Positions 4,235 through 22,006 of a stretch of 64,000 nucleotides of DNA are shown one piece after another. Below the pieces are notes generated by a model, which saw only the letters and a program-made list of their open reading frames with translations, made no database searches and had not been told where the DNA came from. How positions within the stretch are numbered: the stretch's first letter is position 1; the number at the start of each line of letters is the position of its first letter. Origin of the DNA: Hyphococcus flavus. GTDB taxonomy: Bacteria; Pseudomonadota; Alphaproteobacteria; Caulobacterales; Parvularculaceae. The stretch is taken from contig NZ_CP118166.1 of assembly GCF_028748065.1 (NCBI RefSeq), forward strand, positions 1,379,501 through 1,443,500, in the 5' to 3' direction. The position numbers were made by a program, and so were the translations under genes.

Positions 4235-5322
4235 ATTTCGCAGGCCAGATTTTTACCCTTTATGTAGGGCGCTTGTTTCTGGTGCGCTTTCTCGCGCTGT
4301 TGATATTTTTTGTGTTGATTCTGCAGATGCTCGACCTTTTGAACAGGTCTGAAGATATACTGTCAGCGGAAGGTGCAGGTATCAGTTCCGTATGGCGTTA
4401 CATATCATTACGCGCGCCACAGATCGCCAGCCAGTTTACGCCATTTGCGGCTTTGCTTGGAATTGTTTTCACGCTGGCTGGCTTAAGCCATACGAGTGAA
4501 ATCACCATTATGCGCGCAGCTGGCATGTCTATTCATCGCGTGCTGTTTCCGTTAGGTTTTACCTGCGCGCTGATCGCGCTCAGCCATTTTGTTTTTCATG
4601 AAACGGTCACCGTGCCAGCATCGGAAAAGTTGGATTATTGGGCGTTCAATGAATACGCTGTCGACCTGCCTCCCGAAAGCGATACGCGTACAGGTGTGCG
4701 TATCAGCTACGACGGAGAGTTTATTCGTTCTGCCAGCGCTGCGCGAATTGGTGAGGATGTATTGCTTACTGATGTCACGATATACAGTGTGGATTCATCG
4801 GGATTGATCACCAACATAATCGAGGCGCGCAACGCCAGGTATCACGAAGGCGGTTGGCGGTTGTTTGGAGCGCGTACGCTTGGCGCTCTATCTCTCGAGG
4901 TGAGCAACAGTGAGAGCGTCATCTGGACAAACACGCTCGATCCGGAGCTTTTGTTCGCACTCACGCTTGAGCCGGACCAGACCAGCATAAGAGAACTGGT
5001 GGCGAAAGTTCGCCAACTCAGTCAGGACCGTGCTGACACGCGAAGCGCGATGACTTCGCTGCTCAGCCGGTTTTCAAAACCTTTAGCCACGCTCGTCATG
5101 CCGTTGCTTGGGGCGATCGCCGGCTTTGGCGTTCATCGTCAGGGCGTCTTGTTGGTTCGGGCCGTAACCGGGGCCGCTCTTGGGTTTGGCTACTTTGTGG
5201 CTGAAAATCTGGCGTTGGCGCTCGGGTCGCTAGGGGTGGTCCCGGCCATCATCGGAGCGTTTTTTCCAATTGCTCTTTTTATGGTGGTTGGTTTTTCAAT
5301 CATCCTGGCAATGGAAAACTAA
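4231..5322 (+). CDS. lptG: LPS export permease LptG
   Basis: Second permease subunit of the LptB2FG exporter, 363 residues. It starts 'MNFAGQIFTLYVGRLFLVRF', followed by 'MLDLLNRSEDIL' and the YjgQ-family segment 'SHTSEITIMRAAGMSIHRVL'. A periplasmic domain covers about residues 125-270, then the C-terminal helices 'KPLATLVMPLLGAIAGFG'. Start codon overlaps the lptF stop. The gene that often follows in proteobacteria, lptD, is not here; the next gene is flbT. That suggests the permease pair was separated from the rest of the LPS cluster in this lineage. Confidence 0.93.
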   Translation: MNFAGQIFTLYVGRLFLVRFLALLIFFVLILQMLDLLNRSEDILSAEGAGISSVWRYISLRAPQIASQFTPFAALLGIVFTLAGLSHTSEITIMRAAGMSIHRVLFPLGFTCALIALSHFVFHETVTVPASEKLDYWAFNEYAVDLPPESDTRTGVRISYDGEFIRSASAARIGEDVLLTDVTIYSVDSSGLITNIIEARNARYHEGGWRLFGARTLGALSLEVSNSESVIWTNTLDPELLFALTLEPDQTSIRELVAKVRQLSQDRADTRSAMTSLLSRFSKPLATLVMPLLGAIAGFGVHRQGVLLVRAVTGAALGFGYFVAENLALALGSLGVVPAIIGAFFPIALFMVVGFSIILAMEN

Positions 5323-5438
5323 GTCTATTCCTTCGGCTAGTAATGTGACGCCTTGCGTTTCTTCACGGCATGGTTGTATGTTATCAACCAAGGGTTGCAT
5401 ATCTGTGGAGCGCTATAGCTGCTTGGAGGAAAGATGCT

Positions 5439-5843
5439 GTGAGCGGGTTGGTATTAAAGTTACGTCCTCACGAAGAGCTGATGATTAATGGCGTTCTGGT
5501 TGAGAATGGTGACCGGAACACACGTCTGTGCGTCAAATCCGATGGCGCGTATATACTCCGTTTGCGTGATGCATTGCGTCCCGAAGAAGCGACGACCCCT
5601 CTAAAACGTGCTTATTACATTGCCCAACTCGCTGTATCCGGCCAAATAACCAGCACCGAGGCCGCGTCAATTTTGAAGAAGGCTCTTGAGGAAAGGCCTG
5701 ATCTCGATCCGACAGAGGCGCTAATCAGGAGTATTAGAGAGCATGACTTTTATCAGGTTATGCGTGCTTTAAGAACCGAAGCATTAGCTGATCGCGCGCA
5801 TGCAGTCTCGTCACCAGAATGTGCCGGTACACGCAGGGCCTGA
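5439..5843 (+). CDS. flbT: Flagellin translation regulator FlbT
   Basis: 134-residue FlbT-family protein. In Caulobacter FlbT binds flagellin mRNA and destabilises it until the hook is complete. The sequence carries the family core: 'LVLKLRPHEELMINGVLVE', 'GDRNTRLCV', 'ILRLRDALRPEEATTPLKR' and 'YYIAQLAVSGQI'. GTG 5439 is fixed by a strong ribosome binding site, GGAGGA at 5425-5430, eight bases upstream; the longer frame from 5370 runs through that site. The usual partner flaF and other flagellar genes are absent nearby, so flbT is isolated behind lptG. Family call confident; whether the cell has flagella cannot be seen here. Confidence 0.9.
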   Translation: MSGLVLKLRPHEELMINGVLVENGDRNTRLCVKSDGAYILRLRDALRPEEATTPLKRAYYIAQLAVSGQITSTEAASILKKALEERPDLDPTEALIRSIREHDFYQVMRALRTEALADRAHAVSSPECAGTRRA

Positions 5844-5898
5844 AAAATTCTCTCGCCGCTTGTTGTGCTTGGGGCTTTGATCGCTCAAATAGCCCCTT

Positions 5899-7158
5899 AT
5901 GTCAGATCCAGATGAAATAATAACGTTGGGATGCCGTCTTAATCTGGCGGAAAGCGAGATGATGCGGCGGCTGTCTCGCGAAAACGGATGCTGCGACTCG
6001 ATTATTATCAATACCTGTGCGGTAACAAACGAAGCTGTCCGTACAGCACGCCAGCGTATTCGGCGTACGAAGCGTGACCATCCTAACAGCAGAATAATTG
6101 TAACGGGATGCGCCGCGCAAACCGAGCCGGACACTTTCGCCAGCATGACGGAAGTTTCTGCTGTCCTTGGCAATCATGAAAAGCTGAACCCAGATCACTG
6201 GCGCAAATTGGCTGCAACGGAAGATCAAGTCATCCAGGTAAATGACATTCTGTCAGTCCGCGAGACAGCCGGTCATTTGCTGGACGGATACGGCGATCGT
6301 GCTCGGGCGTTTGTGCAGATTCAAAACGGTTGTGACCATCGGTGCACGTTCTGCATCATACCCTACGGTCGCGGGAACTCCCGCTCTGTGCCTATTGATA
6401 CAATTATTGAACAGACGCACCGCATGGTTGACGCGGGACATCGGGAGGTTGTTCTAACCGGTGTTGACATAACGTCTTACGGCGATGGCCTTGAAGGCGC
6501 GCCAACTCTTGGAACCTTAGTAGGGTCTCTACTGGATGCCGTGCCCGAATTATACCGTTTGCGTCTTTCGTCGATTGACGGGGCGGAAATCGATGAAGCC
6601 CTGTTGGAACGTATTATTGGCGATGAACGTGTAGCGCCACACCTTCATTTGTCGTTACAGGCTGGCGACAATCTGATATTAAAACGAATGAAACGCCGAC
6701 ATACGCGCGAGCAAGCTATTGAGTTGTGCCGCACTGTTCGTGAGCGCCGTCCTGAAGTTGCCTTTGGCGCTGATATAATCGCTGGTTTCCCGACAGAAAC
6801 CGACGACATGTTCGAGCGCAGTCTTGGTATTATCTATGAGGCAGGACTGCAGTTCCTGCACGTCTTTCCATTCTCTCCTCGTATGGGCACGCCGGCAGCG
6901 CGGATGCCCCAAGTTCCGGGAAAAATTGCAAAGGAGCGTGCTCGCCGCCTTAGAGAGGCGGGTTCAAAGAACCTAAAAAAGTTTTTAGACCAACAAGTTG
7001 GAAAGACATTTGAGGCCATTCAGGAAAGCGGCGGTACTGCGCGGCTCGGCAACTATGCGCAAGTCGGCCTGAATGACTCGCAGGTTAATCCAGGCGAGGT
7101 TGTTAAGGTAAAAGTTTCCGCCCGTGATGGAGAACGTCTTGTTGGCGCCCTCGTTTAG
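5899..7158 (+). CDS. mtaB: tRNA t6A37 methylthiotransferase MtaB
   Basis: Radical-SAM methylthiotransferase converting t6A37 to ms2t6A37 in tRNAs reading ANN codons; 419 residues. The N-terminal UPF0004 domain supplies three cluster cysteines ('LGCRLN', 'NTCAVT', 'TGCAAQ'). The radical-SAM domain has CxxxCxxC in 'CDHRCTFCIIPYGRG'. The C-terminal TRAM-like part follows 'GKTFEAIQESGG'. 'GCRLN' and 'PYGRGNSRS' separate it from MiaB and RimO. It stands alone on its transcript side with a terminator hairpin 20 bases after the stop. The mtaB-ftsY-ispZ order is common in alphaproteobacteria. Confidence 0.93.
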   Translation: MSDPDEIITLGCRLNLAESEMMRRLSRENGCCDSIIINTCAVTNEAVRTARQRIRRTKRDHPNSRIIVTGCAAQTEPDTFASMTEVSAVLGNHEKLNPDHWRKLAATEDQVIQVNDILSVRETAGHLLDGYGDRARAFVQIQNGCDHRCTFCIIPYGRGNSRSVPIDTIIEQTHRMVDAGHREVVLTGVDITSYGDGLEGAPTLGTLVGSLLDAVPELYRLRLSSIDGAEIDEALLERIIGDERVAPHLHLSLQAGDNLILKRMKRRHTREQAIELCRTVRERRPEVAFGADIIAGFPTETDDMFERSLGIIYEAGLQFLHVFPFSPRMGTPAARMPQVPGKIAKERARRLREAGSKNLKKFLDQQVGKTFEAIQESGGTARLGNYAQVGLNDSQVNPGEVVKVKVSARDGERLVGALV

Positions 7159-18191: not shown

Positions 18192-19241
<1,050 letters not shown>

Positions 19242-19309: not shown

Positions 19310-20923
19310 GTGGAAAGACGGGGCGGTTTGAAAACTAGCGGCAATAAAAATCGCCGTATTGGATTATTGGGCGGGTCTTTTAACCCTGCCCATGAAGGGC
19401 ATCGTGAAATTTCACGTTTGGCTCTTGAACGGCTTGGTTTGGACGCTGTTTGGTGGCTTGTAAGCCCCGGCAACCCTCTTAAAGATCAACGTAGCTACGC
19501 GCCTTACAGTGAGCGCCTAAAAACAGCACGTGAAGTTAGCTCTCACCCAAACATTATTATAAGTGATTTTGAAAACAGGCATGGCCTTCAATACACAGTC
19601 GAAACGTTGGACCATATCAAAGCACTTAACCCGGATGTTAATTTTGTTTGGTTGATGGGCGCGGATAGCCTTGAAAGCTTCCATCGTTGGAAAGACTGGA
19701 TGAAAATTGCGGCGGCTGTACCAATAGCCGTTTTTAATAGGCCAGGTTTTGAAGACCACGTGCTGAATAGTGAATACGCGAAGCATTTTTCGCAATTCCG
19801 GCAGTCAGAGGAAAGCGGGTGTGGATTGGCGAACCAAGAACCGCCAGTCTGGACGTTTTTCGAAGAAACGGAGAATCCGATTTCTTCAACTGAGATAAGG
19901 AAGAGAACGATCAGAAATTCTAATGAAACAGTCTCGCAGACGGATGATTTGCATGCGCCGTACGGCCCGCTTGCATATTTCCTTGATTTGCACCCGGACG
20001 TAGGTGATTTTAGCAAAGACGCTATTGAAGGCTTGTCAGCGTCGGTAAAGTCCATCTCGCCAAAATATTTTTATGACGAGCGCGGTTCGAAGTTATTCGA
20101 TCAAATCACCAAGCTTGAGGAGTATTATCCGACTCGTACTGAGAAGAAGGCATTTCTCAAACATGCGAAAGCAATTTCGAATTCTATTGGCGCCGGGGCC
20201 GCAATTTTTGAATATGGATCCGGGTCGAGTGAAAAAGTGGAGTGGCTGGCGCGCGGTATAGAAAATGCCTCGGCTTATGTCGCAATGGATATCTCAAGAG
20301 AACACTTGCTTGAGAGCGCCGAAACGCTCGCGTCGGTTTTGCCAGTGCCTGTCGCCGCAATATGTGCTGACTTCCATGCGCCTATTCATTTTCCGCAAGG
20401 TGTTTTACCGGAACCCGGCTGCTGGCTGGGATACTTTCCCGGCTCAACAATCGGTAACATGTTGCCGGAGACGGCTGTGGAGTTTTTGAAGCGCGCATCT
20501 GTTACTCTTGGTGAAGGCGCGCAATTTTTAATCGGAGTTGACCTCGTTAAAGACAAAGCGGTGTTGGAAGCTGCTTATAATGACAAGAAAGGCGTCACTG
20601 CGGCATTTAACAAAAATCTCCTTCTACGCATGCAAAATGAATTGGGCGCGCAACTCGAGATTTCCGATTTTGAGCATCATGCTTTTTATAATGAGAGTGA
20701 GAGCCGTATTGAAATGCATTTGCGTGCTGAAAGGCCAACTGCAATATCTCTTGACGGGCGCACCTTTTCTTTCGACGCTGGCGAGACATTACATACGGAA
20801 AATTCTCACAAGTTTACGGTTGATAGTTTTGAGACCTTGGTTAACCAGACGCCCTGGCGACTGGACAAGCATTGGACTGATGAGCGCGCTTGGTACGCTG
20901 CGTGCCTTTTGAGCAACAGTTAA
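19310..20923 (+). CDS. nadD: Fusion: nicotinate-nucleotide adenylyltransferase (NadD) + EgtD-like histidine methyltransferase
   Basis: 537 residues in one unbroken frame. Residues ~15-200 are NadD, which makes NaAD from NaMN: 'GGSFNPAHEGH' (21-31) and 'ISSTEIR' (191-197) are the nucleotidyltransferase signatures. Residues ~225-537 match the whole length of EgtD, the SAM enzyme that trimethylates histidine for ergothioneine: 'KYFYDERGS' (252-), 'YPTRTEK' (273-), 'EYGSGSS' (301-), 'FPGSTIGN' (376-), 'DLVKD', 'GVTAAFNKNLL', and 'TENSHKF' (496-) with the Glu/Ser that hold the substrate amino group. The linker is ~20 residues with no stop; an in-frame TTG at 19947 might allow internal initiation. 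Start GTG 19310 lacks a clear ribosome site; TTG 19328 is an alternative. No egtB in the window. Confidence 0.9.
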   Translation: MERRGGLKTSGNKNRRIGLLGGSFNPAHEGHREISRLALERLGLDAVWWLVSPGNPLKDQRSYAPYSERLKTAREVSSHPNIIISDFENRHGLQYTVETLDHIKALNPDVNFVWLMGADSLESFHRWKDWMKIAAAVPIAVFNRPGFEDHVLNSEYAKHFSQFRQSEESGCGLANQEPPVWTFFEETENPISSTEIRKRTIRNSNETVSQTDDLHAPYGPLAYFLDLHPDVGDFSKDAIEGLSASVKSISPKYFYDERGSKLFDQITKLEEYYPTRTEKKAFLKHAKAISNSIGAGAAIFEYGSGSSEKVEWLARGIENASAYVAMDISREHLLESAETLASVLPVPVAAICADFHAPIHFPQGVLPEPGCWLGYFPGSTIGNMLPETAVEFLKRASVTLGEGAQFLIGVDLVKDKAVLEAAYNDKKGVTAAFNKNLLLRMQNELGAQLEISDFEHHAFYNESESRIEMHLRAERPTAISLDGRTFSFDAGETLHTENSHKFTVDSFETLVNQTPWRLDKHWTDERAWYAACLLSNS

Positions 20924-20971: not shown

Positions 20972-21499
20972 ATGCGGGTATTTGCCCCGTGTGGCCCATG
21001 GAGGAAAACGCTGAATTCACAGCCCGGTAATGCAGCCGCCGGCAAGGCTGCCCTAAAGCTTGTTCCGCACAATACGCAGCATAGCGATGCTGATACGAAT
21101 GAGCATGTGTATGATGGCGAAATACTGCTTGCGGGATTATCGCCGGAAGAGCGCAGCAAGACAATTCTTAATCTTATTCTGCAGGAGTTGGATGACGACA
21201 AGGCCGAAGACGTCGTGACGATCAGCCTTGCCGGGAAGACTGATATTGCAGACACAATGATTGTCGCTAGCGGCCGGTCTCAGCGTCACGTCAGCGCTAT
21301 GGCCGACAAAGTTTTGCGTCGCCTCAAGGAGGCTGGATTTGGTCGCGCCAAAGTGGAGGGCGCTACGGCGAGTGATTGGGTGTTGATCGATGCCGAAGAC
21401 GTCATCGTTCATTTATTTCGGCCTGAGGTGCGTGCATTTTATAATCTTGAGCGGGTGTGGTCCGAAGCCGCGCATACTTCAGCCAAGGCTGACGCCTGA
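20972..21499 (+). CDS. rsfS: Ribosomal silencing factor RsfS (Iojap family)
   Basis: Binds L14 on the 50S subunit and blocks subunit joining in slow growth. The Iojap domain occupies about residues 60-165: 'ILNLILQELDDDKAEDVV', 'DTMIVASGRSQRHVSAMAD', 'VEGATASDWVLIDAEDVIVH' and 'VRAFYNLERVW'. Everything before residue ~55 is a variable extension, so the true start could lie further in than ATG 20972. Sits in the classic nadD-rsfS-rlmH order. Confidence 0.9.
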   Translation: MRVFAPCGPWRKTLNSQPGNAAAGKAALKLVPHNTQHSDADTNEHVYDGEILLAGLSPEERSKTILNLILQELDDDKAEDVVTISLAGKTDIADTMIVASGRSQRHVSAMADKVLRRLKEAGFGRAKVEGATASDWVLIDAEDVIVHLFRPEVRAFYNLERVWSEAAHTSAKADA

Positions 21500-21526: not shown

Positions 21527-22006
21527 TTGCGACTCATAATCGCCGCTGTTGGAAAGATGCGCAGCGCCCCCGGAGCCGCTATGGTAGAGGATTATCTCAA
21601 TCGCAGTGCGGGTATGGGCAAATCGCTCGGTTTTTCTGCAATTAAACTTTTTGAAAAAGAGGCTCCAAAATCGCTTTCCGGCGCCGCATTGACGGACCGT
21701 GAGGGAGAACTTTTGATCGGGGCCGTTCCTGAGCGGGCGGAAGTCGCCGTACTCGATGAACGTGGAAAAAACTTCTCTAGTGAGAGCATGGCCGAATATC
21801 TGGATCATTTGAGGTTAGCGGGCCGGGATGTGGCTTTTCTGATCGGCGGCGCTGACGGACATGGAAGCGACGTCAAGGGACGAGCAGATAAACTAATTTC
21901 TTTTGGCGCGGCGACTTGGCCGCATATGCTTGTCAGGGTTATGCTGGCTGAGCAGCTTTATCGCGCCATTACAATTCTGGCGGGCCACCCTTACCATCGC
22001 TCATGA
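21527..22006 (+). CDS. rlmH: 23S rRNA pseudouridine1915 N3-methyltransferase RlmH
   Basis: 159-residue SPOUT methyltransferase acting on m3Psi1915 in helix 69. Begins at TTG 21527 ('MRLIIAAVGKM'). Conserved regions are 'VAVLDERGKNFSSESMAEYL', 'FLIGGADGHG' (SAM knot) and the C-terminal 'LVRVMLAEQLYRAITILAGH', with 'PYHR' as the family end. A TTG start is supported because homology begins at the very first residues. Stop overlaps the envC-like start (ATG at 22003). Confidence 0.95.
   Translation: MRLIIAAVGKMRSAPGAAMVEDYLNRSAGMGKSLGFSAIKLFEKEAPKSLSGAALTDREGELLIGAVPERAEVAVLDERGKNFSSESMAEYLDHLRLAGRDVAFLIGGADGHGSDVKGRADKLISFGAATWPHMLVRVMLAEQLYRAITILAGHPYHRS

Follow-up and report, generated by a model that had tools for sequence, protein, structure and literature searches.

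The window, meaning the whole stretch of 64,000 nucleotides analysed here, belongs to the genome of Hyphococcus flavus (Parvularculaceae), which consists of one contig of 3.47 Mb and is 99.88% complete. Between obgE and rsfS it holds a reading frame with a GTG start (19310-20923, forward strand) that is open throughout and encodes a protein of 537 amino acids, in which a NadD domain is followed by an EgtD domain. The features of the locus are as follows:

18198..19241, + strand: obgE, upstream (Pfam GTP1_OBG, 214.6 bits)
19310..20923, + strand: nadD-egtD fusion gene, the sole nadD match and the sole egtD match in the genome
19364..19906, + strand: NadD domain, residues 19-199 (Pfam PF01467, NF000843 and motif residues)
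19907..20011, + strand: linker, residues 200-234, between the domain bounds, with pLDDT below 50 at residues 202-213
19949..19951, + strand: in-frame TTG, residue 214, the first in-frame ATG, GTG or TTG past residue 195
20012..20914, + strand: EgtD domain, residues 235-535 (Pfam PF10017, 329.7 bits; TIGR03438; histidine-site residues)
20972..21499, + strand: rsfS, downstream, start codon uncertain (Pfam RsfS, 109.2 bits)
21527..22006, + strand: rlmH-like open reading frame, downstream, presumably rlmH; the rsfS-rlmH order is the same in relatives (tblastn)

The NadD half matches Pfam CTP_transf_like with 83.1 bits (cut-off 21) over residues 19-199 and two NCBIfam models, NF000843 with 252.3 (cut-off 240) and TIGR00482 with 129.2 (cut-off 112.45). 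The EgtD half matches Pfam Methyltransf_33 with 329.7 bits (cut-off 23) over residues 235-535 and the NCBIfam equivalog TIGR03438 with 351.5 against a curated cut-off of 290.9. A preliminary description of this DNA, made from its letters, had proposed that NadD and EgtD share one frame at the site of nadD. This is borne out: both domains pass curated NCBIfam cut-offs, the motifs it cited for the two enzymes are present in the 537-residue frame (for NadD, GGSFNPAHEGH at residues 21-31 and ISSTEIR at 191-197), and the Pfam matches place obgE upstream and rsfS downstream. The protein shares with known NadD (NF000843, TIGR00482) the whole domain, the HxGH and SSTxxR motifs and the obgE-nadD-rsfS setting, but differs in having a second enzyme at its C-terminus. 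With known EgtD (TIGR03438; 4pim and 4uy6 from M. smegmatis, 7scf from M. tuberculosis) it shares the whole domain, the fold and the histidine-site residues, but here EgtD forms the C-terminal part of a fusion with NadD and lies away from egtB. The NCBIfam model PRK07152 (profile length 361) is also NadD with an extra C-terminal domain, which we take to be an HD domain, and the fusion protein matches its NadD part only, with 100.8 bits against a cut-off of 315.

The NadD-EgtD fusion is real. That an assembly or sequencing artefact joined two separate genes is next to impossible and was rejected, as the genus has the same join, in one frame without a stop, in 14 more genomes. The frame also runs across the junction in the window without a break, and a frameshift or misassembly is very unlikely because the genome is a single contig and the frame is unbroken in those 14 genomes. 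Within the genome the EgtD family and the NadD family each have a single match, in both cases the fusion gene, which answers in the negative the question of a second nadD that the first reading of the sequence had raised. The same reading had pointed to an in-frame TTG at 19947 as a possible start for a free EgtD. Such a codon exists, but at 19949, and a free EgtD from it is unlikely, since a Shine-Dalgarno-like stretch was looked for in the 20 bases upstream and none was found.

The residues described for the histidine site of EgtD are Y39, F47, Y56, T163, N166, Y206, T213, E282 and S284 (PMC8593015, as given in the part of that paper available to us). Mapped by alignment to the solved M. smegmatis enzyme, the equivalents in the fusion protein are Y255, F263, Y272, T380, N383, Y423, T430, M469, E497 and S499, and all ten positions are unchanged. 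M469 stands for M252, which we take to be the tenth residue of the site and which also appears in the title of PDB 4pip. Over an alignment of 34 rows (28 from the genus, three from genus g7 and three from related nadD-egtD loci), the column of T430 varies in one row and that of E497 in two, and the other eight columns are invariant. The NadD motifs, whose roles are presumed here as commonly understood, retain H28, G30, H31, S192, S193, T194 and R197 in the fusion protein, and between 32 and 34 of the 34 rows conserve each motif column tested.

These results bear on a further idea of the preliminary description, namely that the C-terminal domain had shifted to another substrate. For the window protein such a shift, for example to a nicotinate derivative, was rejected and is very improbable: all the histidine-site residues tested are kept, the score of 351.5 lies above the equivalog cut-off of 290.9, and egtB is present in the genome, against which stands only the odd company of a NadD partner. 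The EgtDs of two g7 genomes, G048 (L134) and G047 (L007), have a serine at the position of E282, so that an altered substrate preference is conceivable in these two relatives.

An AlphaFold2 model built on a 37-row alignment (mean pLDDT 88.5, pTM 0.62) predicts two firm domains and a loose tether, with no trustworthy contact or orientation between the domains at that pTM. Its best PDB matches are EgtD 4uy5 (E 1.7e-29) and then NadD 5deo (E 3.1e-9); the best 15 matches listed are EgtD chains with TM scores of 0.87-0.91 by target length, and NadD chains come next.

The best explanation of these observations, to which we assign a probability of about 0.7, is that the gene encodes a bifunctional tethered enzyme in which the dosage of EgtD would be tied to an essential NAD gene, with no channelling between the halves. 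The NadD half would convert nicotinate mononucleotide and ATP to deamido-NAD, to be completed by NadE, of which there is one gene over its cut-off in the genome. The EgtD half would trimethylate histidine, forming hercynine in the opening step of ergothioneine synthesis, from which EgtB would continue. The two reactions have no common intermediate, and channelling is not expected because of this and of the flexible tether. Fungal Egt1, which unites EgtD and EgtB in one chain, resembles the window's protein as a case of EgtD inside a fusion protein, but it joins two steps of one pathway, whereas the partners here come from different pathways.

How the fusion may have arisen can be followed within the genus, where egtD directly follows nadD on the same strand in all 28 genomes, fused in 15 and separate in 13. 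In genus g7, nadD and egtD are adjacent and separate in three genomes; in G016 of genus g4, NadD and the first part of EgtD lie in one open frame that is ended by the contig end. A fusion outside the family was looked for in 299 phylum-level genomes and none was found; among the matches listed (E up to 1e-40), only the window's own covers both halves.

The form of the gene pair has changed several times in the genus. A two-domain tree (33 rows, junction left out) has at least five changes between fused and separate forms, in a count that does not separate gain from loss. A single clade of all 15 fused species is rejected (AU test, p 0.00015), as is a clade of G040, G023, G031 and the G024 group (p 0.00003), and a clade of G023, G031 and the five-member G024 group is not rejected (p 0.134); the tests of the smaller groups carry less weight because these groups were defined with the tree already in view. 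A second tree, built from EgtB, NadK and two neighbours (21 genomes of the genus, two g7 rows as outgroup, 1235 columns), has four changes and places G031 with the G024 group (100/99), and the two trees disagree in their backbone. Given the p of 0.134 and the pairing of G031 with the G024 group in the second tree, about four changes are probable, with three to five possible. They would correspond to about four fusions: in the group of seven species that includes H. flavus (the window's group), in the G024 group (six members with G031), in G040 and in G023. The direction was probably from separate to fused, because g7 and the outgroup rows are separate, and this may fail in places. Fused G040 is sister to the separate G045, G038, G037 and G035; in three of these four, which lack a usual start for egtD, only one stop codon (TGA, TAA and TAG, in the same position) separates nadD from egtD within a shared frame, and some of the separate forms beside G040 may be re-split fusions.

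The junctions are consistent with an origin in an operon with the start of egtD placed at the end of nadD, often overlapping it by four bases; small length changes would then have brought the two genes into one frame on about four occasions within the genus. In five of the 13 separate pairs the stop codon of nadD overlaps the start codon of egtD (GTGA or ATGA), the two genes having four bases in common. All six members of the fused G024 group retain a GTG or ATG, in frame, at the old start of egtD; GGAG and 11 bases precede this codon, a spacing also found in four separate species. Eleven bases are long for Shine-Dalgarno spacing, so that internal initiation, and with it a free EgtD, is possible in this group but not likely. 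The window's group has no start codon at the old place in any of its seven members, and the separate start would here have decayed; other in-frame starts near the junction are TTG in the window's genome (G000), G022 and G044, and ATG in G044. At the old place G023 has GTC and G040 has TTG. Because its own start has been lost, EgtD of the window's group is probably made only as the 1:1 partner of an essential NAD enzyme.

In the four separate relatives of G040, namely G038, G037, G035 and G045 (L093, L094, L099 and L100), the first ATG, GTG or TTG beyond the nadD stop lies within the conserved DLxxPM stretch, and each of the four carries a GGAG separated by eight bases from an ATC. An AUC start for egtD or the traces of a re-split fusion might explain this junction, which is only a lead; GGAG, seven bases and ATC also occur in five members of the window's group, at a different place.

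A serious rival to the tethered enzyme, though one we hold at clearly less than even odds, is neutral fusion, in which overlapping operon genes lost the stop by drift and the fused protein is no better or worse. With a four-base overlap in five of the 13 separate relatives, one small length change would have been enough; fused and separate species are intermixed in one genus, and the group beside G040 may even represent a re-split fusion. Rates of change point the same way for the domains. Six fused species pairs were taken, of which one (G000-G021) is saturated at synonymous sites; the other five have dN/dS of 0.06-0.15 for NadD and 0.05-0.17 for EgtD, and three separate pairs have 0.08-0.15, with no clear difference between fused and separate pairs. 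Against neutrality, the seven-species group retains the fusion over long branches, and its linker has low dN/dS in the two measurable pairs (0.04 and 0.06, compared with 0.27-0.37 in three G024-group pairs), a hint only, as each linker rate rests on about 30 codons. In the saturated pair, pN is 0.258 for the linker, above NadD (0.235) and EgtD (0.162).

The second ergothioneine gene of H. flavus also has a NAD(P) synthesis gene as its neighbour. The egtB about which the preliminary description had asked is found by one match over the cut-off (573.4 bits against 360; contig C1, 2408804-2410021), about 1 Mb from the fusion gene, so that the fused egtD does not adjoin it. It is divergent from a NAD kinase gene, and according to the ORF finder the starts of the two frames overlap head to head (L115:8886-11037). 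The product of this nadK matches both NAD kinase domains (38.2 and 36.4 bits; cut-offs 23.7 and 25.5). With egtD fused to nadD and egtB overlapping nadK, both ergothioneine genes that were sought therefore touch a gene of NAD(P) synthesis. Of the 28 genomes of the genus, 25 have an egtB above the cut-off; G033 and G045 contain pieces that score below it, and the fused G032 (84% complete) has a weak match only. The divergence from nadK was read in 21 genomes, the other seven of the 28 being left out for partial or weak egtB matches; it is present in 20 and the 21st is ended by a contig end. In genera g4 and g7 it was found in three of the four genomes read (G016, G046 and G048), and in G047 (g7) a nadK divergent from egtB was not found within the stretch read.

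Tandem egtB and egtD genes occur in a Methylobacterium strain, and deleting them abolishes ergothioneine (PMC4621440, as far as the part of the report available to us goes). For a wider view, 192 genomes were drawn at class level, of which 67 have an EgtD-family match; 60 neighbourhoods of about 5 kb on each side were read, some ended by contig ends, with the window's genome, six weak or broken matches and second matches left out. An egtB lies within about 5 kb of egtD in 50 of the 60, in agreement with the earlier remark that egtD commonly stands near egtB. nadD lies within the same distance in nine, from five families, in the order nadD-egtB-egtD-rsfS in seven and nadD-egtD-rsfS in two, and nadK in none of the 60. 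The nadD-egtD arrangement is thus older than the genus. An EgtD tree made by a quick method from 86 rows (57 from the 60 neighbourhoods and 29 others, G010 left out) places nearly all the nadD-downstream copies in one clade, with three changes in all, one of which is G016, scored as unlinked but with a contig that ends before nadD.

A different arrangement, in which egtBD or egtD is divergent from nadD, occurs in ten Parvularculaceae genomes, from genera g3, g5 and g8. Nine of the ten are in the EgtD tree, where they fall in another clade together with G013, in which no nadD was found and whose label in that tree as divergent from nadD is without evidence. In five further genomes of the family (G001, G006, G007, G008 and G057), neither nadD nor nadK was found in the egt loci read. 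One genome each of g3 and g8 has, between nadD and the egt genes divergent from it, a gene that on visual inspection of its sequence resembles a NAD-dependent epimerase (L121:6220-7197 and L128, about 4522-6180).

Seven class-level EgtD frames of 526-602 amino acids were considered as candidate fusions with nadD and rejected; egtB, not nadD, stands beside them. Single chains of EgtB and EgtD, with EgtB first, are found in seven genomes of family f3 and two of genus g2 in the order to which H. flavus belongs (L164-L168, L170, L258, L127 and L131), and they are a closer parallel to fungal Egt1 than is the window's protein.

The recurring NAD-egt neighbourhoods exceed what a tethered enzyme needs, and gene position suggests that NAD synthesis may be coupled to the redox buffer, as the preliminary description had proposed. 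On this second rival account, the NadD half would sense or set the output of EgtD, or the reverse, and the gene order in these Alphaproteobacteria would reflect selection for joint control of redox cofactors. It would explain why egt genes lie downstream of nadD in nine of the 60 neighbourhoods, in five families and nearly all in one EgtD clade; why they are divergent from nadD in ten genomes (g3, g5 and g8) whose EgtDs are of another clade; why egtB is divergent from nadK in 20 of 21 genomes of the genus and three of four in g4 and g7; and why there were about four changes between fused and separate forms. We nevertheless regard it as unlikely. In 51 of the 60 neighbourhoods there is no nadD within about 5 kb and in all 60 no nadK, the egt loci read in the five genomes of the same family named above have neither gene, and each type of adjacency may be one event kept by descent. 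The model (pTM 0.62) has no trustworthy contact between the domains, and the NAD genes were noticed after the fact. The broader proposition that Alphaproteobacteria couple NAD(P) and ergothioneine synthesis both physically and functionally, with egt genes in the nadD operon, egtB with nadK and NadD welded to EgtD several times in one genus of the Parvularculaceae, so that the thiol would be dosed with the pyridine nucleotides, is to be held tentatively, as a little less doubtful. Because there are three kinds of adjacency, a functional link between nad and egt genes is worth testing.

The preliminary description knew of no described NadD-EgtD fusion, and likewise none was found among the titles and abstract openings of the open-access literature, subscription papers lying outside that scope; nor did those titles and openings yield any tie of ergothioneine synthesis to nadD. 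As of 2022, the physiological function of ergothioneine was described as not yet understood (PMC9516567, in the part available to us). The NadD-EgtD fusion of H. flavus points to NAD(P) metabolism as somewhere to seek that function, and it offers a natural test of whether the NAD and ergothioneine pathways are coupled. One genus holds separate versions of this gene pair, fused versions with a start for egtD and fused versions without one, and because all three occur together, the question of whether an enzyme fusion across pathways is selected or neutral becomes directly testable.
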